Shown here: in pieces, positions 13,398 to 29,479 of the stretch | Position numbering within the stretch: position 1 is the stretch's first letter | How the letters are laid out: the number at the start of each line of letters is the position of its first letter | From: Candidatus Poribacteria bacterium | GTDB taxonomy: Bacteria > Poribacteria > WGA-4E > WGA-3G | NCBI GenBank assembly: GCA_022824265.1 | Contig: JAJEAG010000013.1 | Location: 1-64,000, forward strand | Reading direction: 5' to 3' | DNA length: 64,000 nucleotides | Program-made: the position numbers and the translations under genes | The notes under the pieces: model-generated | Told to the model about the DNA's origin: nothing | The model's input: only the letters and a program-made list of their open reading frames with translations | Database searches by the model: none

Positions 13398-15704
13398 TTA
13401 CTTAGGTACAATCGTATATGTTTTTCCTGTTTCAGTATGAAAATTAACAACATGCTTTGATTGCGAGAACTTTACACGATTACCATCACATGTCACATTT
13501 ACATGCTTAGATGTTCTGAACCAACAATCATTGCCAAGGGTAGATAATAACTGCGCTTGCACGAGCTTACCATCTTTCCACTCAATATCAACTTCAAACC
13601 CGCCACGGGCACGGAGTCCCTTAACATGTCCTGTATGCCATGCTTCTGGAAGTGCAGGAAGTGGGTGTACCTCACCAGCATGACTCTGCAATAACATTTC
13701 AGCGATTCCCGCAGTGCCACCAAAGTTTCCGTCAATCTGAAATGGTGGATGTGTATCAAATAAATTCGTCAGAGTACACTTCGCCAGAAGTTGATGTAGA
13801 TGGTTATATGCTTCCTCTGCATCTTCGAGTCTTGCAAGGAAATTGACTAACCAAGCACGACTCCAACCCGTTTGTCCACCGCCATGTGCTAACCGATATT
13901 CTAAAGATGTCCTTGCTGCTTCTGCCAACTCTGGTGTGCCGCGCAAAGTTATCTGACAACTCGGATGGAGTCCATACATATGTGACATGTGTCGATGACC
14001 TGGTTCCGGTTCGTCATAATCGAAAATCCATTCTTGTAGTCTACCTGTTTTCTCACTAATTTGGAGTGGCGCAAGCCGTTCAAGTGCAGAAACCAACTCT
14101 TCACGAAAATCTGTATCCTCATCAAGAACATCAATACAAGCGATACAGTTTGTAAAGAGTTCATGAATGATCTCCAAATCTATCGTTGCTGCATAAGTGA
14201 ATAGAGATTTTGTTCCATCTGGCTTAAGGAAACTGTTTTCTGGTGAGTGAGAAGGATTGGGCACCAACTTACCAGCGAAAGGTGTACCCTCTGGTGCTTC
14301 AATCAAAAAATCAAGCATAAAACGTGCAGCCCCTTTCATCAAGGGATATGCCTGTTTTTTTAAGAATTCCACATCACCACCAAAAAGATAGTGTTCCCAC
14401 ACATGCTCACAGAGCCAAGCAGAACCTATAGGGGATATACCCCAGATACCATCAGCAGGAGTAGTGAATCCCCAAATATCTGTGAGATGGTGTACTACCC
14501 ATCCATCAGCACCGTAATGACGTTTTGCTGTTTGATTACCCGGTTCAACAAGTGTGTCCATAAAGTCAAATAAAGGTTTATGGCATTCAGCAAGATTACA
14601 GACTTCTGGCACCCAATAATTCATCTGAAGGTTGATATTGGTATGGAAATCGCTGTTCCATGGTGCGTTCATGTGTTCGTTCCAGATACCTTGCAAATTT
14701 GCTGGTAGACAGCCCGGTCTTGAACTTCCTATCAGCAGATAACGTCCGAACTGAAAGTATAGTGCAACAAGTCCCGGATCAGATGCGCCTTCTTTTACCG
14801 CTGCCAGCCGTTCATCAGTTGGTAGATTTTCTGCATCAGTTGTACCGAGATTCATATCTACCCGACGGAATAAAGATTGATGGTCAGCGATGTGGTCCGC
14901 ACGAATCGCTTCGTAAGATTTGTCTACAACGCCAGCAAGAGAGTTTTCGCATAATTCGTGCGGGTTTCCACTTGCATCTGACTGATTGATATAGCTTGTT
15001 GCTCCTGCAAGGAATAATGTTACTACATTTGCTTTGTTGACAGAAATTCTGTTTTCATCAGACTGGATTTCACCACCGTCAACTTGCACCTTTAAGTATG
15101 CTGAAAATCGCATACCGTCATCACCACACTGCCCACTGAGTCTGAGGATATCGTCAGAGATTGACTTTACGTCTGCATCCTGTTCACGGGTCATCGTCAC
15201 ATCAAAAGAGATATTCTCAGTTGGATCACATTCAATTTGAATAACGATGAGTTGGTCTACTGCTGTCGCAAATACCTCTCTACAATAACTGACATCACCA
15301 ATTGTATAGGTGGTTTTGGCAATTCCTATGTCTAAATCAAGTTCTCTGCGATATTCTGCCCCCTCGCTATCATGTGGAAACTCAAGGATGATGTCTCCTA
15401 AAGACTGATACGATTTTATTCGTGGTGGAATACCCATCATCGTTTCGCCAGCTAACTTTGTCGCTTCTTCGTTTTTGTCTTCAAAAAGTAGTTGTTGTAC
15501 TTTTGGAAGTGCCTCCAATGCTTTTGGATTGTTGCGGTTAAGTGGACCACCATCCCAAAGTGTATCTTCGTTAAGTTGTATTCGTTCACGTTCCACCCCA
15601 CCAAACACCATCGCACCGAGTCGTCCGTTTCCGACAGGGAGCGCATCTGTCCATGCATTCGCGGGTTGGTTATACCATAAGACAAGGTTATTATTGTTAT
15701 TCAT
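13398..15704 (-). CDS. Glycoside hydrolase family 95 alpha-L-fucosidase/galactosidase
   Basis: A 768-residue GH95 enzyme, an inverting hydrolase of alpha-1,2-linked L-fucose (some members act on L-galactose). It opens with the family's [20 protein letters not shown], continues with [20 protein letters not shown] (N-terminal beta domain), then the (alpha/alpha)6 barrel. Catalytic features by comparison with Bifidobacterium AfcA: Asn pair in NINLQMNYW (about residue 355), the Glu acid in [14 protein letters not shown] (about 557), and Asp in QIDGNFGG (about 656). There is no signal peptide, so the enzyme appears cytoplasmic and would act on imported oligosaccharides. It starts 64 bp after the end of the FGE-like array and may be read from the same transcript. 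Confidence 0.92.
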
Positions 15705-15768: not shown

Positions 15769-17133
15769 TTATTTTAGCTTAGTATCCCAAGCACATCGGA
15801 ACCCTATATTTGCTACGAAACTGGAACCATACGATGAGGTGAGGAAGCTTGTAAGCATTGGTTTACCACTATATCGAACTGCTATCTGAACGGGAACTGT
15901 TGTAGTAAGCAATATGCCTCCGCGCAAAACGCGGTCGGTTGTAACCTCCCAAAAGTTTGAAAATAACTGATCTAAATCCTCTTTCGAGTTTACACCTGCA
16001 ATTGGGTTCTGTGGATGTAATGAGTTTAAATAATCTGGATCATACTCGTCAAGACACCACTCCCAGACGTTCCCAACCATGTCAAATAGACCGTAGTTAT
16101 TAGCAGGATACTTCCCAACAGATGTAGTTTCACCTGCCGACTTTTCGATCAGTGCCATATCCGAATTCAATTCATTTCCCCAAGGATATTTTTTCGCAGT
16201 TAATCCTCCTCGCGCTGCTTTTTCCCATTCCACCTCTGTTGGTAATCGCTTTCCCATCCATCTTGCGTATGCCATGGCAGCATACCAACTGATATGTGTA
16301 ACCGGGTGTTGATCCTTACCGTCCGGAAAGTTATTCTCATGCCAATTTAACAGATAATATGCATCAAAGCAATGTAAATTAAGATCAGCAGGTACTTGTC
16401 TCTTTCTTAATAATCTTCGTCGCTGTCCCTTTGAAATTTTTCGCCATATGGGATTTATATCAATGAATTTTTTATACTGCGCGTTTGTCACTGGATATTC
16501 ATCCAGACAGAATGCGTCAACGTGGACAGTTTGTCCAGAATTTTCCTTTGTATTTTCGGTTGCGACATTGATTTCCATCTGAAACTCACCTTCGTTGATA
16601 TGTACCATACCTTCTGGTATGGCAACACTTATATATTTTTGATCGGAAGGTGAAATCGCTTCAGTATCAGAAATAGGTGCGCCTTCTTGGTGAATGAGAT
16701 CAACAGGTTGTGGTATATCTGCATTTAGTATAGCGATATGTTCAACACGTTTTTGTGGTTCTATCAGGGTGTCACGCGCTTGATTCAATAGGTTTCTCCA
16801 CTGTTCTTGTGTCCTACCATCTGGTCGTGGTAGTCCACCTGCCCGTAAAGATGCACTGTAGGATAATTTATGTGCTTCCTCAACAAGATCAACTATTGCC
16901 GATTCATCTTGGTTCTGAAGTTCTTCAATAGACAAACCAAGTGTTGCAAAATAGTCTAATTTTTCTCCTACAGCAAAACCTGATTCTTTGAGAATTTCAT
17001 TCGCTTCTTCAAAGGACAGACCGTGCTGTTGTACTGCTTGTTGAAGAAGTGCTATTCGCTGCTCATCGGTAATCGTTGAGGAGAGTGCTTTGAGTGTGTT
17101 TATGACTGAAATAAATTCTTTGCGTTTTGACAT
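15769..17133 (-). CDS. Array paralogue A: J-like module + FGE/SUMF1-type domain
   Basis: A 454-residue cytoplasmic protein, last gene of the array. Residues 1-57 are a helical segment (TITDEQR...AVQQHGLSFEEANEIL); 59-133 resemble a J domain (DYFATLGLS, helix II SAIVDLVEEAH, loop with Arg103-Pro-Asp105 in place of HPD, helix III LLNQARDTLIEPQKR). Residues about 190-454 form an FGE-sulfatase/C-type-lectin-like domain (GEFQME, PVTNAQYKKF, GKRLPTEVEWEKAARGG, GNVWEWCLDEY, GFRCA). The usual RGGSW is RGGILL and the region between it and GFRC is the most diverged of the six. The two FGE catalytic cysteines are absent. A 308-bp gap with paired palindromes separates it from paralogue B. Confidence 0.85.
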   Translation of the reverse strand: MSKRKEFISVINTLKALSSTITDEQRIALLQQAVQQHGLSFEEANEILKESGFAVGEKLDYFATLGLSIEELQNQDESAIVDLVEEAHKLSYSASLRAGGLPRPDGRTQEQWRNLLNQARDTLIEPQKRVEHIAILNADIPQPVDLIHQEGAPISDTEAISPSDQKYISVAIPEGMVHINEGEFQMEINVATENTKENSGQTVHVDAFCLDEYPVTNAQYKKFIDINPIWRKISKGQRRRLLRKRQVPADLNLHCFDAYYLLNWHENNFPDGKDQHPVTHISWYAAMAYARWMGKRLPTEVEWEKAARGGLTAKKYPWGNELNSDMALIEKSAGETTSVGKYPANNYGLFDMVGNVWEWCLDEYDPDYLNSLHPQNPIAGVNSKEDLDQLFSNFWEVTTDRVLRGGILLTTTVPVQIAVRYSGKPMLTSFLTSSYGSSFVANIGFRCAWDTKLK

Positions 17134-17203
17134 GTGCTCTGTGTTAATAGTTGATTTGTGATTCTATTATAGTAAAACCATAATTATTTACACCCAACGG
17201 GTT

Positions 17204-17269
17204 GGTTCGGTTTCCTAACCGAACCGGTGTTTATACAGCGTCATAGATGCGGTTAGGAAACCGTATCTA
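17204..17269. repeat. Pair of REP-like palindromes in inverted orientation
   Basis: GGTTCGGTT-TCCT-AACCGAACC at 17204-17225 and TAGATGCGGTT-AGGA-AACCGTATCTA at 17244-17269. The loop is TCCT in the first and AGGA in the second, so the two copies are in opposite orientation. The same core (GCGGTTAGGA...ACCGC) occurs at 3253-3274 and 3629-3650. The gap 17134-17441 contains nothing else I can identify. Confidence 0.7.
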
Positions 17270-17441
17270 CCGAGGAGTGGGCACTTATTTATATGTTTCA
17301 CTATTAGGTAAATATTACAACACAAATGATTAGTTTGTATAGAACAGAATCGCCCAAAAGAGATCGTTCTGTGATACTCCATTATTATGTCAGAATTTTA
17401 TCATAGCATAGAGCATAAGAAAAGAAAATTTAGCAGTGTTA

Positions 17442-18791
17442 TTAATATTTCTCTGCCTTCACACAACGGAAACCAATTCTGGCGAGCGTTCGTGTGGGTA
17501 GATTTTTATAACGGTAGGCGGAAGTGAGAAATTGGGGTGGGTCAATCCAAGAACCTCCACGCAACACACGATGATTTGTTTTATCCATCATATCTGTTTT
17601 TATTGATTTTAGGTCACTTACTCCGCAAATGGGATTCCGTTTTGGTGAATTTAGATAATAATCCGCTTCATAAACATCAAGACACCATTCCCACACGTTT
17701 CCTGACATATCATAAACACCATAACCATTAGTAGGATATTGTCCAATTTCTGTGGTATCTCCTATATTGCTTTGGTAGTTGGCATTTGTAGTATCAATTG
17801 TATTTCCCCACGGATATTTCTGCCACATCAATCCACCGCGAGCTGCTTTCTCCCATTCTGCTTCTGTTGGTAAACGTTTACCAACCCATTGTGCATACGC
17901 CATCGCCGCATGCCAACTTACCCAAGTTACAGGATGATGTTCCTTCCCATCGGGATAGTTATTCCCATTCCAACTTTTAAGGTAATCACCATCATGAAAC
18001 CTCTTTGCTATGGATGTCTTCAACTTTTTATGCCAATCAAACCAATCTGATGGTTTTTGCCACTGCGGATTAGCATCCACAAATTCCTTGTATTGGATAT
18101 TAGTCACCAAGTTTTTGTCAATATTGAATGAATCCACATAGACAAGATGTAAAGGATTATCACTTGCATCAGCATTTTCATCATTGCATCCCATTGGATA
18201 TTCTCCCGCAGGAATGTATGCCATATCACTTGGTGCACCTGCTGTTGACTCTGTATGTTCAGAATCCGTATTTGATAACACAGTTCCAATATTTGTTCGT
18301 ATAATGTTGGAAGTTGCTGGTTTAGAGTTCTGAAATTCGTTATTATGGGGTGATTGATTGTCAGATGGGGATTGATTTAATCGGTATGAGACAAGATACT
18401 CTCGTCGTTTCTGTGGACTTTTAAGAGTATCACGTGCTTCATTTAGTAATGTCCTCCACTGTTCCTGTGTTTTTCCGTCTGGACGTGGCAGACCGCCTGC
18501 CCGTAAAGAAGCACTGTAAGCACTCCTATGTGCTGCATTAACACGAACAGATATTTCAGATTCACTTTTATCTTGGATTTCTTCTATGGAAAGGTTTAAC
18601 ACATCAAAGTAGTCGGCACTCTCTCCGATAACAATTCCTGAGGTATTCAGAATGTTCTCAACATCATCCTTTGATAAGTCATACTGATGTACTCCTTGTC
18701 GGAGGAGGAGGACACGTTGTTGTGTAGTAATAATTGGTAAGGTTTCTTTGAGTGTGATGACAACTGACCTAAATTCTTCGCGTTTTGACAT
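17442..18791 (-). CDS. Array paralogue B: J-like module + FGE/SUMF1-type domain
   Basis: A 449-residue paralogue of the array. The N-terminal helical segment (MSKREEFRSVV...) and J-like segment (DYFDVLNLS, SLRAGGLPRPDGKT with Arg-Pro-Asp for HPD, LLNEARDTLKSPQKRREY) are followed by a Ser/Asn/Thr-rich linker (about 140-190), then the FGE-like domain (MAYIPAGEYPMGCNDENADA, WVSWHAAMAYAQWVGKRLPT, GNVWEWCLDVY, RVLRGGSWIDPP, IGFRCVKAEKY). No Cys is found in the segment where FGEs have their CxxxxC pair. The gene starts 68 bp after paralogue C on the same strand. Confidence 0.85.
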   Translation of the reverse strand: MSKREEFRSVVITLKETLPIITTQQRVLLLRQGVHQYDLSKDDVENILNTSGIVIGESADYFDVLNLSIEEIQDKSESEISVRVNAAHRSAYSASLRAGGLPRPDGKTQEQWRTLLNEARDTLKSPQKRREYLVSYRLNQSPSDNQSPHNNEFQNSKPATSNIIRTNIGTVLSNTDSEHTESTAGAPSDMAYIPAGEYPMGCNDENADASDNPLHLVYVDSFNIDKNLVTNIQYKEFVDANPQWQKPSDWFDWHKKLKTSIAKRFHDGDYLKSWNGNNYPDGKEHHPVTWVSWHAAMAYAQWVGKRLPTEAEWEKAARGGLMWQKYPWGNTIDTTNANYQSNIGDTTEIGQYPTNGYGVYDMSGNVWEWCLDVYEADYYLNSPKRNPICGVSDLKSIKTDMMDKTNHRVLRGGSWIDPPQFLTSAYRYKNLPTRTLARIGFRCVKAEKY

Positions 18792-18858
18792 CTGATAGTT
18801 TACCGATTTGTGTCGATTCTGATTAACCTACTATAAGATACAACCAACCATAGATTGT

Positions 18859-20205
18859 TTAATGTATATATTCACTTACACATCGAAACCCGTAGCAGTA
18901 GTAAGTAAAATTTGGTGATGCCCAACCGCTATATGCGACACGTAAAGCACGTTCGCTACTTGCCCAAGAACCACCACGTAGAATGCGATTGGTATTAGTG
19001 TCCATATAATGATTGTTTATTTTACTAATACCGTCAGGTGTTAAAATAGGTTCACGATGTGTTGCATTTTCATTATATTCATCAAGACACCATTCCCAAA
19101 CATTACCCACTATATCATATACACCGTATCCGTTAGGTGTATACTTTCCAACAGGTGTTGTTTTGCCAAGATGCATTCCGTAATTTGCCATACTTACATT
19201 TATCTCGTCACCCCATGGATATATTTTCCCCTCTAAACCGCCGCGGGCAGCCTTCTCCCATTCTGCTTCAGTTGGTAATCTTTTACCAACCCATTGTGCG
19301 TACGCCATTGCTGCGTACCAACTTACCTCAACGACCGGATGATCTTCCTTACCACGAGGATAGTGGTTACCAATCCAAGTTGGCAAGTAGTTTCCATTGT
19401 GATGAATTCGAAGAAGACTGTTTTTCTGCCATTGAGGGTTTTCCATCAAAAATGTTTTGTATTGGGCGTTACTAACAGGATATATATCCATCATAAAACT
19501 GTCTATGTGGACAGTTTGAACATCTATTTTTGGATGATTTGATTCTTCCTCCTGACTTCCCATCAAAAACTCACCAGCAGGAATAAGTACCATTTCAGTG
19601 GAGACATCAAGATTAGGAGGAATTGCATTTGGTAAGGATTCAATGTCGTTTGCTGGGGGCTGTTCTATGTTTTCACTTGGAGTCGTTAGTGCTGCTGTGG
19701 CATTGGGAGTATTTATCGTTATCGGTTCGCTACTTTGAAATTCTTCTGATGGACTTGTAAGGTTGTCCAAAGACACATCTACTGCTTTATCCTGAGATAG
19801 TATTTCCAGATATTCTCGTCGTTTTTGTGGATCTATCAGCGTTTCACGTGCTTGATTCAAAAGGTTACGCCACTGTTCTTGTGTTCTACCGTCCTTACGA
19901 GGTAGTCCTCCTGCTCGTAAAGATTCACCATAGATATGGTTATGTGCTTCGTCAATACGTCTCTCAATATCAACTTCATTTTTGTTATGGAGTTCATCTA
20001 AGGAAAGTTCTAACACTTCTAAATAGTTGACTTCGTCTGTGACCATCAATCCCAGCGAGTTTAGTATCTCTGAAGCTTCATCAACAGAGAGATCGTAATT
20101 TTGCACCGCTTGTTTCAGTAACCCAAGACGTTGGACATCGGTAATACTCGGGGATACAGTTTTAAAGGTGTTAATGACTTGGATGAAATCCTCGCGTTTA
20201 GACAT
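18859..20205 (-). CDS. Array paralogue C: J-like module + FGE/SUMF1-type domain
   Basis: A 448-residue paralogue. An upstream in-frame ATG at 20226 would add seven residues, but the conserved MSKRED start at 20205 is preceded by GGAG eight bases before and matches the other paralogues, so it is chosen. J-like segment: NYLEVLELS, loop GLPRKDGRT (Arg-Lys-Asp), helix III LLNQARETLIDPQKRREY. A long Thr/Pro/Ser-rich linker (about 140-205) leads to the FGE-like domain (MVLIPAGEFLMGSQEEE, VVEVSWYAAMAYAQWVGKRL, GNVWEWCLDEY, RILRGGSWASSERALRVAYS, YGFRC). It lacks the FGE active-site cysteines at the usual place. Confidence 0.85.
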   Translation of the reverse strand: MSKREDFIQVINTFKTVSPSITDVQRLGLLKQAVQNYDLSVDEASEILNSLGLMVTDEVNYLEVLELSLDELHNKNEVDIERRIDEAHNHIYGESLRAGGLPRKDGRTQEQWRNLLNQARETLIDPQKRREYLEILSQDKAVDVSLDNLTSPSEEFQSSEPITINTPNATAALTTPSENIEQPPANDIESLPNAIPPNLDVSTEMVLIPAGEFLMGSQEEESNHPKIDVQTVHIDSFMMDIYPVSNAQYKTFLMENPQWQKNSLLRIHHNGNYLPTWIGNHYPRGKEDHPVVEVSWYAAMAYAQWVGKRLPTEAEWEKAARGGLEGKIYPWGDEINVSMANYGMHLGKTTPVGKYTPNGYGVYDIVGNVWEWCLDEYNENATHREPILTPDGISKINNHYMDTNTNRILRGGSWASSERALRVAYSGWASPNFTYYCYGFRCVSEYIH

Positions 20206-20264
20206 GATAGATACTCCAATAAACATACTTTATGTATACAGACATACAAGGAATGTAGTCCCAC

Positions 20265-21485
20265 TTAAGACTTAACAGACATCGCACAACGAAAACCGAT
20301 ACTTGAATTTGTATAAGTTGGTGGAGCCGCGCCCCGTTTCGCAACACGCAAGTTTTTCACCGAATTGTACCAGGAACCTCCGCGTATCACATGAAATGCT
20401 TTTGAACTTGTATAATATTTACTTATGCTATCAATACTACCACCAGAAACAGGATTTAGTGTGGGTGAGGACATATAAAAACGACTATCCCATTCATCAA
20501 GACACCATTCCCATACGTTTCCTGGCATATCATATAATTCGTAACCGTTTGCAGGATATCTCCCCACAGGAGTCGTCTGTCCAATGTTTCTACCATAATT
20601 TGCCATTTTATAGTCTACTGTGTTACCCCATGGATATTTTTGACTTACCAACCCACCACGTGCTGCTTTCTCCCATTCTGCTTCTGTCGGTAAACGCTTA
20701 CCTTTCCACTCTGCATACGCCATTGCTGCATACCAACTTACATGAGCAACTGGATGATTACTTATTTCTTCAGGATAGTCATTCTTATACCAATGGTGTA
20801 GGTAATAGCCATCATGGTACCACAAAGACATGAATCGCATCAAACCTTTGGGTTTACTCCACTGTGGGTTTTCATCCACGAATATCTTAAAATCTGCATT
20901 TGTTACAGGATATTGGTCAATATAGAATTCATCAGTAAAAACTGTGTGAACAGGTTTTTCATCATCAAATCTATCTATTTCATTACTACCCATCTCAAAT
21001 TCACCTTTGGGGATTAGTGCCATATTTTCAATAAATAAAGGTGCTGATGGGGTGTCACTGACTAATTCCTCTGTTTGAAAAGTTGTAAGGTGTGTCTGTC
21101 GTTTATATTGATCTGTAAGTGCATCACGTGCCTGATTTAGAAGTGTCCGCCACTGTTCTTCAGTTCTACCATCAGCTCGTGGGCGGCCTCCTGCCTTCAA
21201 CGACTCACTATATTGTTTTTTATGAGCCGCTTCAATAAGATTGACAATATCCGATTCACTTCGGTTTTCAAGGTCTGAGAGAGCAATATCCAACACATCA
21301 AAATAATCAACTTGTTCACCGATAGACAATCCTGACGCATTGAGGATATCAGTTGCTTCATCAGTAGTGAGACTATACTGTTGAACTCCTCGCTGAAGCA
21401 GTCCTTTACGTTGTTCATCAGATATCGTTGTTGATAAACCTTTAAGTGTGTTGATTAGTGCAATAAAGTCATCACGTTTTGACAT
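20265..21485 (-). CDS. Array paralogue D: J-like module + FGE/SUMF1-type domain
   Basis: A 406-residue paralogue, the shortest, with a reduced linker between the J-like module (DYFDVLDIA, loop GRPRADGRT, LLNQARDALTDQYKRQTH) and the FGE-like domain (MALIPKGEFEMGSNEIDRFD, PVTNADFKIFV, AHVSWYAAMAYAEWKGKRLP, GNVWEWCLDEWDSRFY, HVIRGGSWYNSVKNLRVAKR, IGFRCAMSVKS). A 48-bp stretch at 21230-21277 is identical to the corresponding part of the WD40 paralogue F, which is far higher similarity than in the rest of the two genes. 39 bp separate it from paralogue C. Confidence 0.85.
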   Translation of the reverse strand: MSKRDDFIALINTLKGLSTTISDEQRKGLLQRGVQQYSLTTDEATDILNASGLSIGEQVDYFDVLDIALSDLENRSESDIVNLIEAAHKKQYSESLKAGGRPRADGRTEEQWRTLLNQARDALTDQYKRQTHLTTFQTEELVSDTPSAPLFIENMALIPKGEFEMGSNEIDRFDDEKPVHTVFTDEFYIDQYPVTNADFKIFVDENPQWSKPKGLMRFMSLWYHDGYYLHHWYKNDYPEEISNHPVAHVSWYAAMAYAEWKGKRLPTEAEWEKAARGGLVSQKYPWGNTVDYKMANYGRNIGQTTPVGRYPANGYELYDMPGNVWEWCLDEWDSRFYMSSPTLNPVSGGSIDSISKYYTSSKAFHVIRGGSWYNSVKNLRVAKRGAAPPTYTNSSIGFRCAMSVKS

Positions 21486-21547
21486 TTTTTGTTTAGTATT
21501 TAATCCTAAGGAATTTGTAATGTAACTAAGAAAAAAGTAGATACTGT

Positions 21548-22813
21548 TTACGTGTCAACTGATCTTACACACCGAAACCCGACAAGACTGCTTGTTTTCC
21601 ACGAAGCTAACCGGTCACGATTTGATACTCTGAGATCTTGTTCAGAAGAATACCATGAACCACCGCGTATTACCCGTAATGTTTTAGATTTTGTTGCGGT
21701 ATCTATGATACTTTCTATACTACTCCCTGAAACAGGATTTCGCCTTTCGGAATATTCATAGAATTTGCTATCCCATTGATCAAGACACCATTCACTTATG
21801 TTGCCTACAATGTCACCTAAACCGTATTCATTTTCAGGATATTTCCCTACAGGTGTTGTTTCAGCAACCCGCTTATCATAATTTGCATAACTATCATTAA
21901 CTATCTGACCCCATGGATATTTTTGTCGAGTTAAACCACCACGGGCAGCCTTTTCCCATTCCGCTTCAGTCGGCAACCGTTTACCAACCCAATTCGCATA
22001 AGCCATCGCAGCATGCCAACTGATCCAATTGACAGGATGGTCTGCTTTTCCAGTTGGATAGTTGCCTTTAAACCAGTTTAACAAGTAATCGCTATCTCGT
22101 AATTTAAAAATATGATGATAATCAAACCACCCAAGATTACGCCATTGTGGGTTAGCATCTATAAATTCCTTATACTGAGAATTAGTCACAGGATATTTGT
22201 CTATATGAAATGCATCAACATAGACAGAATGTGCTGGTTTTTCTTCATCGGGTATGTCATAATCGTCGCATCCCATTTCAAATTCACCGGCTGGGATGAG
22301 TATCATACTATCTTGTTCTAATGTCCTTAATGGAATGGACTCAGTCTCTGAGGGAATAGTCTCTGATGTAGAGATAGATTCAGTTGCGTATAAATCATCA
22401 TGTTGTAGCATTGCAATGTGTTCTTGTCGTTTTTGTTCATTATTGAGAGTGTCACGTGCTTGATTTAGAAGTGTCCGCCATTGCTCTTCTGTCTTACCAT
22501 CTGCACGAGGACGTCCCCCTGCTGCCAACGAAGCATTATACAGTCTCTTATGTGCAGTCTCAACACGACTCTTTATAGATAATTCATCCATCCTTTGGAT
22601 TTCATCAATTTCGATTCCTAACACATCAAAGTGGTTAACATGGTTGTCAACCACCAATCCAAAAGACTTCAGTATATCTGTTGCTTCCTCTACAGATAGT
22701 CCAAAGTTATTCACTGCTTGACGTAGGAGACCTATTCGTTGTTCATTAGAAATAATATTGGAAGCCTCACTGAGTGTGCGGATGATTGCAATGTATTCAT
22801 CAAGTTTTGCCAT
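21548..22813 (-). CDS. Array paralogue E: J-like module + FGE/SUMF1-type domain
   Basis: A 421-residue paralogue with the most diverged N-terminus (MAKLDEYIAIIRTLSEASN). J-like segment: NHFDVLGIE, helix II SIKSRVETAHKRLY, loop GRPRADGKT, helix III LLNQARDTLNNEQKRQEH. FGE-like domain: MILIPAGEFEMGCDDYDIPD, PVTNSQYKEFIDANPQWRNL, WISWHAAMAYANWVGKRLPT, GNISEWCLDQWDSKFYEYSE, RVIRGGSWYSSEQDLRVSNR, VGFRCVRSVDT. GNISEW replaces the usual GNVWEW. It lies 71 bp after the WD40 paralogue on the same strand and has no signal peptide. Confidence 0.85.
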   Translation of the reverse strand: MAKLDEYIAIIRTLSEASNIISNEQRIGLLRQAVNNFGLSVEEATDILKSFGLVVDNHVNHFDVLGIEIDEIQRMDELSIKSRVETAHKRLYNASLAAGGRPRADGKTEEQWRTLLNQARDTLNNEQKRQEHIAMLQHDDLYATESISTSETIPSETESIPLRTLEQDSMILIPAGEFEMGCDDYDIPDEEKPAHSVYVDAFHIDKYPVTNSQYKEFIDANPQWRNLGWFDYHHIFKLRDSDYLLNWFKGNYPTGKADHPVNWISWHAAMAYANWVGKRLPTEAEWEKAARGGLTRQKYPWGQIVNDSYANYDKRVAETTPVGKYPENEYGLGDIVGNISEWCLDQWDSKFYEYSERRNPVSGSSIESIIDTATKSKTLRVIRGGSWYSSEQDLRVSNRDRLASWKTSSLVGFRCVRSVDT

Positions 22814-22883
22814 ACAATGACCTTATTAAGTTTAAGAATATACGTAAATCAATGGAATACATAAGAAAATATTCTATGTGGAT

Positions 22884-24266
22884 TCAATCCGTTTCTCGAC
22901 TAAGATTTAGATTCCACAAACGTACATTCTTATCCGTGCTACAACTTGCGAGTATTTCTCCATCAGGTGAAAAGGCAAGTGAGTTTACTGTAGAATTATG
23001 TCCAGTAAGTGTAGACTTAAATTTCGCTGTTGCAAAGTCCCACAGACGTACCAATCCATAGTAACTACCACAAGCGAGGGTATTACCATCAGGTGAAAAG
23101 GCAACAATATTAAACCAAGAGAGATGATCCGCAAGAAAGTTTTGTGGTTTCCCAGTAACAGAATCCCACAAATGAACAGTACCATAAAGACTTGTGCAAA
23201 CGACGGTATTACCATTGGGCGAATAATTTACTGAACTTATACTATTCTTATGACCATCCAAGATGAATTTATTGAAGAATGTGTCTGCATCCCACACACA
23301 AACAGTCCTGTCATAGCTTCCACTTGAAATTGTCTTACCATCTGGCGAAAAGGCAACTGAACTTACCCAATTGCTATGTCCCTTGAGAATTGTTATAAGT
23401 TCTCCTGTAGAAGACTCCCACAAACGAACAGTACCATCGTAACTACCACTTGCAATAAATTTACCGTTGGGTGAATACGCCACTGAACTGACTGCATCTT
23501 TATGTCCCAATAAAGTATCTTTTACCTCACCAGTTTCAGAATCCCACACCTGAACAGTTCGATCATTACCACCACTTACGTTTGTTTTGCCATCGGGGGA
23601 ATAAGTCACAGAATTTACAACGTCTTTATGTGCAATGAATTTATATTTTGGTTTGCCACTTAAAACATCCCAGACATATACTGTGTTATCTGAACTACTA
23701 CTTACAATGGATAAACCATCTGGGGAAAATGCAACTGAATTGACTGGTCCCTTATGTTCTGAGAGAACGGTATCTTCTATTATAATTTGCTTTTTGGCAA
23801 GTGAATTACTTGTATGTAAAGGAACCTCTTTAGCATATTTATCTGTAATCTCGGTCCTAATTTCCTTGATGTGATTTTGACGTGTCTGTGGATTCGTAAG
23901 CTTATCTCTCGCTTGATTTAAGAGTTTACGCCATTGCTCTTCTGTTTTTCCATCCGTACGAGGACGACCCCCTGCTGTCAACGAAACACTATAGAGTTTT
24001 TTATGTGCTGCTTCAATAAGATTGACAATATCCGATTCACTTCGGTTTTCAAGGTCTGTGATTGATAAACCTAATGTTTCAATATAATTAACTTGTTCAC
24101 CAATAGTCAAACCTGACGAATTTATGATTTCAGTCGCTTCATCAGCAGAGAGACCATACTGTTGGACACCTCGCCGAAGCAGCCCTTTGCGTTGTTCATC
24201 AGTAATCATAGGAGAAATCGATTTTAACTCATTGATGAAAACAATATATTCATCATGTCTTTTCAT
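22884..24266 (-). CDS. Array paralogue F: J-like module + seven WD40 repeats
   Basis: A 460-residue member in which the FGE-like domain is replaced by a WD40 propeller. Residues 1-135 are the same helical plus J-like module (NYIETLGLS, loop GRPRTDGKT, LLNQARDKLTNPQTRQNH). From about 168 to 455 there are seven WD repeats opening with EHKGPV, AHKDVV, GHKDAV, GHSNWV, GHKNSI, DHLSWF and GHNSTV, each with an AFSPDG/SYDGTV/VWD pattern, enough for a closed seven-bladed propeller. About 110 bp of the J-like region (24001-24110) match the FGE-type neighbour G with a single difference, showing recent module exchange or conversion. It starts 11 bp after the stop of G. Confidence 0.88.
   Translation of the reverse strand: MKRHDEYIVFINELKSISPMITDEQRKGLLRRGVQQYGLSADEATEIINSSGLTIGEQVNYIETLGLSITDLENRSESDIVNLIEAAHKKLYSVSLTAGGRPRTDGKTEEQWRKLLNQARDKLTNPQTRQNHIKEIRTEITDKYAKEVPLHTSNSLAKKQIIIEDTVLSEHKGPVNSVAFSPDGLSIVSSSSDNTVYVWDVLSGKPKYKFIAHKDVVNSVTYSPDGKTNVSGGNDRTVQVWDSETGEVKDTLLGHKDAVSSVAYSPNGKFIASGSYDGTVRLWESSTGELITILKGHSNWVSSVAFSPDGKTISSGSYDRTVCVWDADTFFNKFILDGHKNSISSVNYSPNGNTVVCTSLYGTVHLWDSVTGKPQNFLADHLSWFNIVAFSPDGNTLACGSYYGLVRLWDFATAKFKSTLTGHNSTVNSLAFSPDGEILASCSTDKNVRLWNLNLSRETD
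24001..24110 (-). repeat. Near-identical module segment shared with 25277-25386
   Basis: By eye, one mismatch over 110 bp with the segment at 25277-25386 (paralogue G), covering helix II of the J-like domain and the stretch before it. The first part also matches 21230-21277 in paralogue D exactly. Flanking parts of the genes are much less similar. Confidence 0.75.
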
Positions 24267-24276
24267 TTATATTCTC

Positions 24277-25539
24277 TTAATTGGTATTGGGAACACTTGA
24301 TTGGATTCCAATTGATTGTGTCTGTGAAGTGTTGTAAGCTGGATTTCCCCATACACAGCGAAATCCGATTACATTCATGCAAAATGTCGGAAATTCAGCG
24401 TTACGATTCGCAATTCGCACCAACCATGCTGGTATTCGCCAAGAACCTCCCCGTAATACGCGATTTGATTCTACGTCTAAATAGTGGTGAACAATCCATT
24501 CAATAGAGTTAGCTCCAGAAATCGGATTTTGTGGGGACGCACTCATTGCAGTGTCTTTATGATAAGCGTCAAGACACCACTCCCATACGTTTCCACACAT
24601 GTCATACAAATCGTATCCATTCGGAGGATACTCACCCACTTGTGTCGTTCCGCCCATGTTCCAATCATAATTTGCTTTGGAGGGATCAGCAACATCACCC
24701 CACGGAAATTTATTACCAGATAACCCGCCACGTGCAGCCTTTTCCCATTCTGCTTCTGTTGGAAGACGTTTACCCACCCACTGTGCATAAGCCATAGCAG
24801 CAAACCAACTGACATTGATTACCGGATAATCTGCTTCGGTATTCTTATAAGTATTTCCTTGCCAATGTCTGAGGTAGTCAACATCACAGTATTTATCTGG
24901 AATATTGTCTATACTCCATTGCGGATTATCGTCAACAAACAATTTGTACTGAGCATTCGTGACTGGATATTTATCAATGTAAAATGCGTCAAGAAAAACT
25001 GTGTGTATCGGATGTTCATCACCGAATGCTTCCTCATCATTGCCTCCCATCTCAAATTCACCTGTAGTGATGAGTGCCATATTATCAAGATTTGGTGGAT
25101 TCTCTACCTTATGTATGTGTCCTTTCTTATAACGTAATGTTGACAAGTAGGTTTGACGATTTTTGGGTTCTAAAAGTGTGTCACGTGCTTGATTCAAGAC
25201 CGTTCGCCACTGTTCTTCTGTTCTACCATCCACACGAGGTCGTCCCCCTGCCTTCAATGACAGACTATACAACTGCTTATGTGCTGCTTCAATAAGGTTG
25301 ACAATATCCGATTCACTTCGGTTTTCAAGGTCTGTGATTGATAAACCTAATGTTTCAATATAATTAACTTGTTCACCAATAGTCAATCCCGATGCATTTA
25401 TGATCTCAGTCGCTTCATCAGCAGACAGACCATACTGCTGTACCCCTAACCGAATGAACCCTTTACGTTGTTCATCGGAAATTGATGAGGAGGCAGTTCT
25501 GAGCGCGTTGATAATCTCCAAGAATTCCTCACGGGACAT
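24277..25539 (-). CDS. Array paralogue G: J-like module + FGE/SUMF1-type domain
   Basis: A 420-residue paralogue, first of the array after the Hsp70 gene (90 bp gap). N-terminal helical segment MSREEFLEIINALR; J-like segment NYIETLGLS, loop GRPRVDGRT (Arg-Val-Asp), VLNQARDTLLEPKNRQTY. FGE-like domain: MALITTGEFEMGGNDEEAFG, PVTNAQYKLFVDDNPQW, NVSWFAAMAYAQWVGKRLPT, GNVWEWCLDAYHKDTAMSAS, RVLRGGSWRIPAWLVRIANR, IGFRCVWGNPAYN, then a short Gln/Ser-rich tail. The only Cys between RGGSW and GFRC is in FCMNV, not at the FGE active-site spacing. Confidence 0.85.
   Translation of the reverse strand: MSREEFLEIINALRTASSSISDEQRKGFIRLGVQQYGLSADEATEIINASGLTIGEQVNYIETLGLSITDLENRSESDIVNLIEAAHKQLYSLSLKAGGRPRVDGRTEEQWRTVLNQARDTLLEPKNRQTYLSTLRYKKGHIHKVENPPNLDNMALITTGEFEMGGNDEEAFGDEHPIHTVFLDAFYIDKYPVTNAQYKLFVDDNPQWSIDNIPDKYCDVDYLRHWQGNTYKNTEADYPVINVSWFAAMAYAQWVGKRLPTEAEWEKAARGGLSGNKFPWGDVADPSKANYDWNMGGTTQVGEYPPNGYDLYDMCGNVWEWCLDAYHKDTAMSASPQNPISGANSIEWIVHHYLDVESNRVLRGGSWRIPAWLVRIANRNAEFPTFCMNVIGFRCVWGNPAYNTSQTQSIGIQSSVPNTN
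25277..25386 (-). repeat. Near-identical module segment shared with 24001-24110
   Basis: Partner of the 24001-24110 segment (one difference by eye). Marks a recombination or conversion tract between an FGE-type and a WD40-type paralogue. Confidence 0.75.
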
Positions 25540-25628
25540 ACGTTCATATCCTTTAATGTAAATATGAAGGTGAAGACACGATATTATTATACTAATCCAG
25601 AAATGGTAGTACTATGTTAGATGTTGAC

Positions 25629-27224
25629 TTATTCAACGGTAAGGTCTTGTAGTTCTGTTTTTGCCTGTGCAACTTCCTCTTCATTGAGCGTAGGTCTATC
25701 AATAATAGAAAACAGGTCGTAGACAGCAGTTGCATCATCGTTAGATAGTGATTTTGCAGTTACCTCAAGGTTTTGGTCTAAGTTGTACTTGTAGTTTACT
25801 TCAATTGGTGATCCTTGTGGTAACCCCGGTGGAAGTTCAAGGGTACATTCACCCAATTTGTACTCATCAAAGAGATCTATTTCATCCCTACGTTGATCTT
25901 GTTCAAGACCTTGGACTACCTCAATTAATACCGATGGTTGATTGTGATCCACCGTCAAAAACCTATCCGCAATTTCACACGGTACAGCAGTCATTTTTGG
26001 AATCATGACATGGATAATATGCTGACGGATTGCGTTGAGAACAACAAGTCCAAGATTGTGAGTTGCTCCATCGGTTACGGTAACCTTCGGTGCACCATCA
26101 GGACCGATGAAACGATCGATGACTGCTTCTGGCATATCAATCGCTTCCGTGCTGCCTTCGGAAATCTGCCGTAATGTTCCCTGAATTGCTGCACCAATAG
26201 CAACGACTTCATCAGGATTGACTTCATGTGGATTGATCTCTTTACCGCTTAAAGATGCGATCATCTCCTGCACCATCGGCATACGGGTTGAACCACCTAC
26301 CAATAGGATTTTGTCTATTTCTTCCCAAGTCATTTCTGCTTCAGAAAGCACCATATTGCACAAAACCCTACATCGTTCAAGTAGGTCAGCAGTTAGTTGT
26401 TCGAACTTCTCGCGCGTCAACTCAACACGGGTCGTTTTACCATTATATCCACAAACAATGAGTGCGCGTTGTCTTAAGGACAATGATTCCTTGGCTGTGA
26501 TCGCATCCAATTGTAGGTCTTGGTAGGAGTGAAGATCTGCTAATGGATTTTCACCGTGTTCAATCTCAAACATCTCGGCAACATAAGTAATGATTTTATC
26601 ATCCCAATCCTTGCCACCAAGTCTATGATCCCCATTCGTTGCAAGCATCTGTATTTCCGAATCTGACACCTTCATGATGGTCACATCAAACGTGCCACCA
26701 CCAAGATCAAGCACAAATACATTTTGATTACTCCCTAATTGATCAATGCCATAAGCAAGTGCAGCAGCAGTTGGTTCGTTTAGGACTTGCAACACATTCA
26801 ACCCAGCAATTTTTCCAGCGTTACGAGTTGCTTCGCGCTCTGCATCGTGAAAATATGCGGGAACAGTGATGACAGCATCCGTAATCTCTTCATCCAGATA
26901 TGTCTCGGCATCTTGCTTGAGTTTGGTAAGTATTACGGCAGATAGTTCTTCTGGGGAATAGTCCTTATCATCAAATGTGCGATAGAATTCCGTTTTGGAT
27001 TTCCCCATCTCACGTTTGATAAACTCCACGATTTGTTCGGGGACTGCTCTGGCATTCTGCTTAGCGATTTTTCCAACAGTAACAAGAGCATCTTCAAACA
27101 TTACGACTGATGGTGTAATGCGTTCACTCTCAAGGTTTGGAATAATCTCTGGTTGACCGTGTTCATTCACATGTGCAATCACAGAGAATGTAGTACCGAG
27201 ATCTATACCAACGACCTTACCCAT
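25629..27224 (-). CDS. Hsp70/DnaK-family protein lacking the C-terminal lid
   Basis: A 531-residue Hsp70. The nucleotide-binding domain is complete: GIDLGTTFS (6-14), VLDLGGGTFDV (171-181), LLVGGSTRMP (307-316). The substrate-binding beta domain follows (about 380-492, with VVQGLEQDQRRD), but only about 38 residues remain after it, so the helical lid (over 100 residues in DnaK) is missing. The hydrophobic interdomain linker (DVLLLD in DnaK) is not conserved here (KVTVTD), and a short acidic insert precedes it. It overlaps the GrpE-like gene by 8 bp and is followed by seven J-like-module genes, with no classical dnaJ in view. I read it as a specialised paralogue rather than the housekeeping DnaK. 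Confidence 0.9.
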   Translation of the reverse strand: MGKVVGIDLGTTFSVIAHVNEHGQPEIIPNLESERITPSVVMFEDALVTVGKIAKQNARAVPEQIVEFIKREMGKSKTEFYRTFDDKDYSPEELSAVILTKLKQDAETYLDEEITDAVITVPAYFHDAEREATRNAGKIAGLNVLQVLNEPTAAALAYGIDQLGSNQNVFVLDLGGGTFDVTIMKVSDSEIQMLATNGDHRLGGKDWDDKIITYVAEMFEIEHGENPLADLHSYQDLQLDAITAKESLSLRQRALIVCGYNGKTTRVELTREKFEQLTADLLERCRVLCNMVLSEAEMTWEEIDKILLVGGSTRMPMVQEMIASLSGKEINPHEVNPDEVVAIGAAIQGTLRQISEGSTEAIDMPEAVIDRFIGPDGAPKVTVTDGATHNLGLVVLNAIRQHIIHVMIPKMTAVPCEIADRFLTVDHNQPSVLIEVVQGLEQDQRRDEIDLFDEYKLGECTLELPPGLPQGSPIEVNYKYNLDQNLEVTAKSLSNDDATAVYDLFSIIDRPTLNEEEVAQAKTELQDLTVE

Positions 27225-27933
27225 CTGTACTACCTCCCTTTTCGCTGATAGTTGATGGATTTACGTTGTCATCAGATTCCTGAGAAGTGGAATTGTAACG
27301 GTAAATAGTTACCTCTTCTGGTCGGAAAACTTTTCCTCGCCAATTAAACCCAATTTTATGTACTTCAGCTATCTTTCGATCCTGTTCTGGATTATCTGAT
27401 GGTATAACTTTGCGTGTCTTGTGCAGCTGTCTGTCAAGAGTATCAGATGATTCTGTATACGGTGACACGTCCATACGGAATAATACCTCTTCCAGTTTAA
27501 ACCGGAAGTTTTCTAAGTTTTTCCTGTATTGGGTCAACACAATTTTCATGTCCTCATCATTTCCACTGCCGATATCATCAAATTGAGATTCAAGGGATAC
27601 AAAGCTGTCGTATAGTTGGATCAGGTTGTGTATTATCGGTTTGTGCAGCACTTCAAGCAGAAAACTCTCTTTATAGTCCTTCATTTCAGCATATAACTTG
27701 TCAAACATCTCTGTCTGATTCTGGTTCCGAGAAATCTGTTTCTCAAAAAGGTCTTGTAATGCAGCTAAACTCTGACGCACTTCTGATATGGCGTTTGGTT
27801 GTATCAATTCTGTTTGATCCGCTTGCTCAGTCAGATTTGTAGTAGATTCCTGTATTTGTTCCGATTCAGCGGTATCATTATTCTCTTTTAAATCTAAGTT
27901 TACATTATCATCTCCGTTAATATTCTTACTCAT
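27217..27933 (-). CDS. GrpE-like nucleotide exchange factor
   Basis: A 238-residue GrpE-family protein. A GTG at 27945 is possible, but AGGTGG sits eight bases before the ATG at 27933 (MSKNING), which is preferred. After an acidic disordered N-terminus (1-60) comes a long coiled coil (about 60-110), a helical bundle part (KDYKESFLLEVLHKPIIHNL, LYDSF) and a C-terminal beta-rich part (IPSDNPEQDRKIAEVHKIGF, WRGKVFRPEEVTIYRY) as in GrpE. It is first in the operon with the lidless Hsp70. Its acidic tail (SEKGGSTDG) ends within the Hsp70 start. Confidence 0.82.
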   Translation of the reverse strand: MSKNINGDDNVNLDLKENNDTAESEQIQESTTNLTEQADQTELIQPNAISEVRQSLAALQDLFEKQISRNQNQTEMFDKLYAEMKDYKESFLLEVLHKPIIHNLIQLYDSFVSLESQFDDIGSGNDEDMKIVLTQYRKNLENFRFKLEEVLFRMDVSPYTESSDTLDRQLHKTRKVIPSDNPEQDRKIAEVHKIGFNWRGKVFRPEEVTIYRYNSTSQESDDNVNPSTISEKGGSTDG

Positions 27934-27968
27934 ATTTAAAACCACCTGTAGCTATATTTACTTTATAG

Positions 27969-28062
27969 GAGGCATCACTACTCGGTCAAACGCTCTTCTG
28001 ATTATACAATGTGAATAGGAGGAATGTCAAATAAAGTGATGCCTCAATTAATTGAGACATCA
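27969..28062 (-). promoter_or_regulatory. Promoter of the GrpE-Hsp70 array with three 9-bp half-sites
   Basis: On the minus strand TTGACA (28030-28025), an 18-bp spacer and TATAAT (28006-28001) form a near-ideal sigma-70 promoter; transcription would begin near 27994 and the ATG is at 27933. Three copies of TGATG(C/T)CTC surround it: 28037-28045 (plus orientation), 28054-28062 (minus) which together form a palindrome upstream of the -35 box, and 27969-27977 (minus) in the leader. No CIRCE element (HrcA site) is seen. The arrangement suggests an operator bound at both sides of the promoter. Confidence 0.7.
28037..28062 (-). terminator. Palindrome after the sulfatase gene
   Basis: TGATGCCTCAATT (28037-28049) and AATTGAGACATCA (28050-28062) pair with one mismatch. 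It lies 41 bp beyond the sulfatase stop and may end that transcript; it is also the upstream half-site pair of the next operon's promoter. Confidence 0.4.
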
Positions 28063-28102: not shown

Positions 28103-29383
28103 TTAACCCTTTTGCCAAGGAACGCTTCCTGCTTTTTGTATCTCTTCCTGTAATAGCTGTCCCATCTCTCTAAATTTCTGAGTGTTTGTCTTTGAAGTAT
28201 CAGTTGCTTCTAATGGATCACTTGATAGGTCATACAGTTCCAGTGGTTCAAATGGTCGATTGTGTAATAACTTTATGTCACCTTGTCGAATCGCGTGTTG
28301 ACTCAATCCACGAAACTGTTGTCCACCCTCGCGTCGTAGCCAATACAGCAGTCGATCTGAGAAGTCCTGTTTTTCACCTTGAAGTGTTTTCAAAATGGAC
28401 TGTCCCTCAATTTCGTGATTGATAGGAACATCCGCCACCTCACACACTGTCGGATATAAATCCATTAGCATTCCAACCTGATCCGTAACGTGTCCTTCAG
28501 GAATATGTCCTTGCCACATAGCACAGGTAGGAACTCGTATGCCACCTTCATACATCTCACCTTTCTGCCCGCGTAATGGACCATTAGTAGCACCAACCCC
28601 TATTTGTCCTCCATTGTCTGATGAATAGATGACAAGGGTATTAGAAAGTTGACCTGTATCCTCAAGTGCATCCAGCACACGACCGATTCCAGCATCCATG
28701 TGCTCAACAAGCGCAACGTATTTTGCACGTTGCGGTGAAATATCCTGTTCACGTTCCATCACACGTTCCACCCAATCATCAGGAGGTTGGATCGGTGTAT
28801 GTGGTGCGTTGTAAGCAAGATAGAGAAAGAATGGATGGGATGTATGTGCATGTGTCCGAATGAAATCAACACTCCAATCAGAAAAGAGGTCAGTAGCATG
28901 TCCCCTCGGATCAATTGTTTCTAAATCGTGCCGCATATAGTTATTATTGTGACGAAGGTGTGTGTAGTAGTCATCCATCATATCTCCGAGGAACCCGTGG
29001 AAATGGTCAAAGCCTCGTTTACATGGGTGATTCTCATCCTCAAGCCCCAAATGCCACTTTCCGATGATGGCTGTACGGTAGTCTTTCTGCTTCAACATTG
29101 AAGGCATTGTGATTGCATCCTGACAAAAATAACCCCAGTTATTCTCCGAATGCGTGCGAATCACACCAGGCACACCTACTCTATCCGGATAACGTCCTGT
29201 CAGAAGCGATGCACGACTCGGTGAACAAACAGAACAATTAGCATAGAACTGTGTAAATCGTGTACCCTCAGTTGCTATTCTATCAATGTTCGGGGTTTGT
29301 ATTGAAGGTCCATCGTGTGCGGATATATCGCCATATCCATGATCATCTGCAAGTATTAGTAATATATTCGGTGACTTTGCCAT
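28103..29383 (-). CDS. Type I sulfatase (arylsulfatase family)
   Basis: A 426-residue cytoplasmic-looking sulfatase that hydrolyses sulfate esters after conversion of Cys to formylglycine. The modification motif is CSPSR (Cys53-Arg57) in NCSVCSPSRASLLTGRYPDR; metal ligands are in LADDHGYGD (Asp13, Asp14). IIGKWHLG and the AYNAPHTPI block are typical, and SSDNGGQIG carries the later Asp-Asn pair. The ATG at 29395 is possible but GGAG fits the ATG at 29383 (MAKSPN), which is chosen. No signal peptide. It lies beside the mannonate dehydratase gene, pointing to breakdown of sulfated polysaccharide. The nearby FGE-like array lacks catalytic cysteines and is unlikely to be its activator. Confidence 0.92.
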   Translation of the reverse strand: MAKSPNILLILADDHGYGDISAHDGPSIQTPNIDRIATEGTRFTQFYANCSVCSPSRASLLTGRYPDRVGVPGVIRTHSENNWGYFCQDAITMPSMLKQKDYRTAIIGKWHLGLEDENHPCKRGFDHFHGFLGDMMDDYYTHLRHNNNYMRHDLETIDPRGHATDLFSDWSVDFIRTHAHTSHPFFLYLAYNAPHTPIQPPDDWVERVMEREQDISPQRAKYVALVEHMDAGIGRVLDALEDTGQLSNTLVIYSSDNGGQIGVGATNGPLRGQKGEMYEGGIRVPTCAMWQGHIPEGHVTDQVGMLMDLYPTVCEVADVPINHEIEGQSILKTLQGEKQDFSDRLLYWLRREGGQQFRGLSQHAIRQGDIKLLHNRPFEPLELYDLSSDPLEATDTSKTNTQKFREMGQLLQEEIQKAGSVPWQKG

Positions 29384-29479
29384 AATCATCTCCATGTAGT
29401 TATGTTATCTTATCAAACGGGGTGATCAATCTGCGATCTCATTCTATTCTATGTTATACGTTAATAGGATATTTGGTTA

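Follow-up and report, generated by a model that had tools for sequence, protein, structure and literature searches.

A minus-strand array of GrpE, lidless Hsp70 and HPD-less J-like module proteins in one family of Poribacteria

Results

The window analysed here, the whole stretch of 64,000 nucleotides at positions 1 to 64,000 of contig JAJEAG010000013.1 from the metagenome-assembled genome of a Candidatus Poribacteria bacterium (GCA_022824265.1), a lineage of sponge-associated bacteria, carries on its minus strand, at 15769-27945, a head-to-tail array of nine open genes, which encode a GrpE-like protein, an Hsp70 and seven proteins with about 135 N-terminal residues in common (Table 1). This shared part, referred to as the module, is 48-74% identical to that of the first of the seven proteins in the alignment, and it is followed in six of them by an FGE-type domain (PF03781, E 1e-53 to 1e-63) and in one by seven WD40 repeats. 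The intergenic distances in coordinate order are 308, 67, 38, 62, 70, 10, 89 and -8 bp, the last being the overlap of the GrpE and Hsp70 reading frames. An initial annotation, made from the sequence alone, had described the nine same-strand genes, the 8-bp overlap and the six FGE and one WD40 paralogues in these terms, and all nine genes were found to be open and matched by Pfam; the strong promoter region that it had claimed corresponds to a perfect sigma-70 consensus before GrpE. A perfect 12/12 consensus also precedes GrpE at loci L009, L013 and L027, and a near-perfect one at L011 and L026. Many poribacterial genomes show the same gene order, so that the array pattern is not due to chance. 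The same genome encodes one other Hsp70, a DnaK on contig C27, and at least five J domains recognised by Pfam. Elsewhere in this genome (G000:C25, L086:9263-10282), a canonical DnaJ domain bearing the His-Pro-Asp (HPD) motif is fused to an FGE domain, with a PhyH gene after it.

The module consists of an N-terminal helical half (residues 1-58) and a J-like half (residues 59-134). When 128 J-like halves were combined into a profile, hhalign matched it end to end to true J domains (probability 95.2, score 42.6). Among the controls, 100 column-shuffled profiles reached a probability of at most 8.1 and a score of at most 18.7, and the probability was 0.2 for the reversed profile and 0.4 for the N-terminal half. 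AlphaFold predicted a short helix I and a long helix II followed by helices III and IV both in the whole module (pLDDT 87) and in the J-like half taken from the short form (pLDDT 79). When both models were compared with the PDB using Foldseek, J-domain entries made up most of the top 25 matches of one search and all of the top 14 of the other, and the matches included 5nro_B, a J domain bound to DnaK. Among 18 J-like halves scanned with Pfam, seven gave weak DnaJ matches (best E 0.0099), and DnaJ was the most frequently matched family. Querying the PDB at the sequence level with a profile of the module returned no match. The HPD motif was present in none of the 128 module sequences, and the charge of helix II was -0.6 in the J-like halves versus +2.5 in true J domains. 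The initial annotation had called the module J-like and had made this depend on residues 59-133 being related to a J domain; the profile comparison, AlphaFold and Foldseek were all J-like, so that the predicted fold stood, but it had overlooked that HPD is missing everywhere.

The Hsp70 of the array comprises a nucleotide-binding domain and the beta part of the substrate-binding domain (residues about 402-520) and ends at residue 531, the alpha-helical lid being missing. The catalytic residues D8, T11, K70, P143, R151, E171, D194, T199 and D201 and most residues of the pocket are kept, so that this dedicated protein looks like an active Hsp70. Its J-contact side is altered. Published contacts between J domains and DnaK are D35-R167/Q378, H33-L391 and K48-D477 (PMC8215388; also PMC13012618, PMC5519331). 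The comparison covered 33 distinct Hsp70s of the system, in E. coli DnaK numbering. The equivalent of R167 is Q in the Hsp70 of the window, whose linker reads VTVTD versus VLLLD, and R167 is replaced in all 33 proteins, by Q (30), H (2) or K (1). L391 is also replaced in all of them, E206 is K or R in 25 and D477 is K or R in 29, and the acidic strand is less acidic. All four residues are kept in 19 poribacterial DnaKs and in E. coli DnaK, as well as in two Hsp70s of approximately 38% identity from other poribacterial families (L149, L150). In four Hsp70-vWA proteins, R167 and E206 are kept and D477 is not. The loci of these two Hsp70s, L149:4947-7289 with a GrpE-Hsp70 pair and a TPR protein and L150:732-3431 with a GrpE-Hsp70 pair and a Pfam DnaJ gene, may represent an ancestral form.

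The module was found in 29 of 85 poribacterial genomes, every one within a single family, and Hsp70s at least 63% identical to that of the window occur in the same 29 genomes and in G047, whose contig ends within the Hsp70. An Hsp70 lies within the examined stretch at 26 of the 31 module loci; the remaining five are satellite arrays or lie at contig ends, and Hsp70 is encoded elsewhere in those genomes. The initial annotation had asked whether module homologues cluster with Hsp70 genes or mostly lie away from them, and they cluster with them at these 26 loci and accompany them in 29 of 29 genomes. At L076, a single reading frame joins the Hsp70 nucleotide-binding domain, the N-terminal half of the module and part of GrpE. 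A scan of a genome collection gave matches solely in Poribacteria, though it used only two peptide patterns and remote relatives outside the phylum could escape it, and no detectable relative was found in the viral contigs, plasmids and phages searched. The restriction of the system to one poribacterial family was not seen in the initial annotation.

The C-terminal domains are exchanged between modules. In the window, the module DNA of the module-WD40 gene matches the module DNA of FGE protein 1 at up to 100% identity, after which the identity drops to approximately 0.4. In the sister genome represented by L101, whose Hsp70 is 99% identical, the gene after Hsp70 starts as FGE protein 1 of the window, intergenic DNA included, and follows the WD40 gene of the window from nucleotide ~100-250 on, indicating a crossover inside the module. 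At L010, a WD40 module shares 87% identity with its FGE neighbour and 70% with the nearest of the other WD40 modules. Further fusions of the module or its J-like half are to ankyrin repeats (L076) and to Ig-like domains with membrane segments (L078, L074), and in the J-like proteins of L068-L072 and L075, FGE is preceded by membrane segments and a Pro-rich stretch. The module is also fused to an ABC permease (L081:7064-9130) and to a DctQ subunit of a TRAP transporter (L092:7501-8577), with no Hsp70 nearby. The exchangeability of domains put forward in the initial annotation is directly visible in the L101 crossover and extends to ankyrin, Ig-like, membrane, permease and DctQ partners. Its description of all proteins as cytoplasmic holds for the window array but not elsewhere, because the system also has membrane versions and loci linked to a caspase.

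Face and core were compared across 101 FGE domains, the face being the positions downstream of RGGSW that match the variable face of the lectins diversified by diversity-generating retroelements (DGRs). Within orthologue groups, the face was 74% and the core 76% identical; between orthologue groups, the face was 14.5% and the core 57% identical, so that the faces of paralogues are related at a near-random level. As judged from these alignments, the faces are a fixed repertoire of different surfaces and not DGR variation. No match to the reverse transcriptase family PF00078 was found in the genome, in which controls were detected; DGR diversification was rejected on this ground and because the faces are not hypervariable between orthologues. 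The cysteine pair with which FGE binds copper and acts as a catalyst is missing, since Cys occurs in none of the 101 domains at the second of the two aligned positions, and the first position is gapped in the alignment. The initial annotation, whose FGE-type assignment agrees with the PF03781 matches, had missed the loss of the catalytic cysteines.

The array occupies a site between a sulfatase gene and a GH95 gene. At L139 and L140 the array is absent and the two genes are adjacent (~190 bp apart), which makes the site the conserved element and not the sulfatase. The number of sulfatases does not track the system; every f1 genome has at least 24 of them, whether or not the system is present. 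At L148:8473-9516, a scar frame between the sulfatase and GH95 genes joins Hsp70 residues 1-118 to an FGE fragment. In a second layout, GrpE-Hsp70 lies beside membrane J-like-FGE proteins, with a caspase-PEGA-FGE protein upstream, and four loci of this layout carry Hsp70-vWA or a protein closely related to it. The caspase-PEGA-FGE protein has an intact His/Cys pair and is probably located outside the cytoplasm because of its signal-peptide-like N-terminus. At L074:1500-3587 and L076:2428-4518, Hsp70-vWA, in which vWA replaces the lid, lies beside GrpE and the dedicated Hsp70.

Table 1 Features of the array and its flanks in the window
Feature	Position	Strand	Details
Flanking GH95 glycoside hydrolase, outside the system	13398..15704	-	PF22124 E=7.5e-178; other edge of integration site
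Module-FGE protein, 454 aa, longer FGE C-terminal loop	15769..17133	-	PF03781 E=1.2e-53
Module-FGE protein, 449 aa	17442..18791	-	PF03781 E=5.8e-58
Module-FGE protein, 455 aa	18859..20226	-	PF03781 E=1.2e-63; start probably 20205 (MSKRED)
Module-FGE protein, 406 aa	20265..21485	-	PF03781 E=2.1e-63
Module-FGE protein, 421 aa	21548..22813	-	PF03781 E=7.6e-62
Module-WD40 protein, 460 aa	22884..24266	-	PF00400, 7 stretches
Module-FGE protein 1, 420 aa	24277..25539	-	PF03781 E=2.2e-60
Shared module copies	25135-25539, 23862-24266, 22409-22813, 21081-21485, 19801-20205, 18387-18791, 16729-17133	-	Alignment
Dedicated lidless Hsp70, 531 aa	25629..27224	-	PF00012 E=3.6e-123
GrpE-like nucleotide exchange factor, 242 aa	27217..27945	-	PF01025 E=2.2e-9; start GTG 27945 or ATG 27933
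Sigma-70 consensus TTGACA-18-TATAAT, 12/12	28030-28001	-	55 bp before GrpE
Terminator-like stem	28037-28062		Directly before promoter; would close upstream sulfatase unit
Flanking sulfatase, outside the system	28103..29395	-	PF00884 E=1.6e-63; one edge of integration site

Discussion

The changes on both contact sides, in the modules and in the Hsp70, suggest a chaperone machine insulated from the main one of the cell. We consider it probable that the array encodes an accessory, insulated Hsp70 machine with plug-in adaptors, whose J interface has been rebuilt. The dedicated Hsp70 and the GrpE-like exchange factor would drive an ATP-powered cycle of binding and release, and the J-like half would dock every adaptor on this Hsp70 and bypass the housekeeping DnaK, the interface having no HPD on the module side and no equivalent of DnaK Arg167 on the Hsp70 side. 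Each C-terminal domain, either an FGE/C-type-lectin face or the WD40 propeller, may bind a different protein, so that a fixed set of targets would be handed to the Hsp70, and the array may diversify through duplication and through crossovers within the conserved module. The physical docking, the orthogonality to DnaK and the delivery of clients in this scenario, like any cellular role, are what we infer from the genes. We suggest more tentatively that the HPD-less J family and the R167-less Hsp70 evolved as an orthogonal pair, which may serve as a modular hub for immune or stress recognition with lectin-fold and propeller adaptors.

Several observations weigh against the insulated machine. HPD-less J proteins are usually considered unable to stimulate Hsp70 (PMC13254874). 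No module protein, either at full length or as the J-like half, reaches the Pfam DnaJ cut-off, and the Foldseek probabilities are high but the E-values weak (0.1-0.5). Because the Pfam cut-off is not passed and these E-values are weak, the predicted J ancestry of the module rests on the profile and the fold. The Hsp70s of the system are divergent overall, having lost 103 of 299 positions that are invariant in DnaK, so that the loss of the J contacts is not statistically special by itself; the case for a matched change of the interface would rest on the chemical fit of the contacts and on the comparison Hsp70s. Finally, Hsp70 is not encoded near five module loci, nor near the permease and DctQ fusions. 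The system would behave as one of the J-protein/Hsp70 type, yet its modules lack the HPD motif that serves as the criterion for J proteins.

The alternatives to the insulated machine overlap with one another. An HPD-less pseudo-J protein could act like Pam16, dimerising with or inhibiting other J proteins, or could be a mere structural tag, and would not then drive the dedicated Hsp70. Every copy is without HPD, type IV J proteins, Pam16 among them, are unable to stimulate Hsp70 (PMC13254874), and a canonical J-FGE protein is encoded elsewhere in the genome (L086). However, the scanned neighbours of the arrays revealed no HPD-bearing J gene, the genetic linkage is to Hsp70, and it is the Hsp70 of the system that is changed on the matching side, which the two comparison Hsp70s and, at R167 and E206, the Hsp70-vWA copies are not. 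We regard this alternative as unlikely. Handling of sulfatases is more improbable still. FGE and its paralogue SUMF2 bind unfolded sulfatases, and the FGE-like proteins could likewise bind them while Hsp70 holds them for activation, in keeping with the membership of the FGE family, the flanking sulfatase gene and the sulfatase-rich genomes. The catalytic cysteines are absent from the 101 domains, however, the f1 genomes are rich in sulfatases irrespective of the system, the flanking sulfatase belongs to the conserved empty site, and WD40, ankyrin and transporter fusions do not fit such a role. Sulfatase maturation was dropped as the lead idea on account of the missing cysteines and the empty site.

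A role in biological conflict has more in its favour than either of these, though we think it rather less probable than a general adaptor machine, on top of which it could in any case sit. The FGE and WD40 faces would sense parasite proteins or stress signals, and the Hsp70 would be a switch that, powered by ATP, releases effectors once a threshold is passed, a mechanism proposed for MoxR-vWA and GAP1-N2 systems (PMC7159879). This is supported mainly by the sister loci with caspase-PEGA-FGE, its His/Cys pair intact, and Hsp70-vWA fusions, which recall those systems, in which FGS, caspase, vWA and Hsp70 with GrpE and DnaJ are all present (PMC7159879). The patchy distribution within one family (29 of 85 genomes) and the rapid turnover, seen in inserted genes and an empty site, are consistent with defence. 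However, the window array contains no recognisable effector, PADLOC gives no system beyond matches to repeat domains, none of the scanned neighbours is a defence gene, the caspase protein is probably extracytoplasmic, and the faces are conserved among orthologues instead of being hypervariable.

Known systems resemble this one in part. The GAP1-N2 GTPase-centred conflict systems with an Hsp70/GrpE theme (Kaur et al., 2020; PMC7159879) also place Hsp70 and GrpE beside a DnaJ-fused repeat or recognition protein, and some carry a second Hsp70 without a peptide-binding domain (PMC7159879), but they occur mostly in actinobacteria and firmicutes and have a GTPase core and FNIII repeats, in contrast to the HPD-less J-like modules and tandem FGE/WD40 adaptor arrays found here; no GAP1/TRAFAC GTPase was present among the flanking genes scanned with Pfam, which are part of the neighbours. 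The MoxR-vWA ternary systems share C-terminal FGS/FGE protein-binding modules, caspases and vWA, although their ATPase is the AAA+ MoxR and not Hsp70, and their FGS domains are often diversified by DGRs, which are absent here (PMC7159879). The variable proteins of DGRs, such as TvpA of Treponema (2y3c), are built on the FGE/C-type-lectin scaffold and vary in residues of the same C-terminal face, whereas the present genome lacks a reverse transcriptase match and the faces are fixed within orthologue groups. The Hsp70-like CnuD of CoCoNuT is likewise a specialised Hsp70 within a system of several genes that may be defensive, but has degenerate ATPase motifs and McrBC partners (PMC11090510), unlike the Hsp70 described here with its intact ATPase residues and GrpE-like partner.

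Among J proteins, type IV members such as Pam16 have a J fold without canonical HPD, and DjlB/DjlC, with an HPE motif, are paired with the divergent Hsp70 HscC (PMC13254874). In comparison with these, a whole expanded family is HPD-less here, the linked Hsp70 lacks R167 and the client domains are exchangeable. A 2026 review called it enigmatic whether accident or selection lies behind the loss of HPD in J proteins (PMC13254874). As HPD is lost across the whole family and the matching arginine is lost in the linked Hsp70, this question becomes testable with natural pairs, and the system would provide an Hsp70-J pair that may avoid cross-talk with DnaK and whose client-binding domains could be swapped.

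Arrays of the family also contain genes of other kinds. A gene for a reprolysin-like metallopeptidase is inserted into the array of the closest relative (L101:3505-4632), and DUF2971 genes are inserted in two module arrays (L102:7256-8008, L091:9505-10323). In several g4 arrays, an ankyrin-repeat protein is encoded directly upstream of Hsp70, at the place of GrpE (L093:7558-8457, L095:5405-6394, L097:5676-6641).

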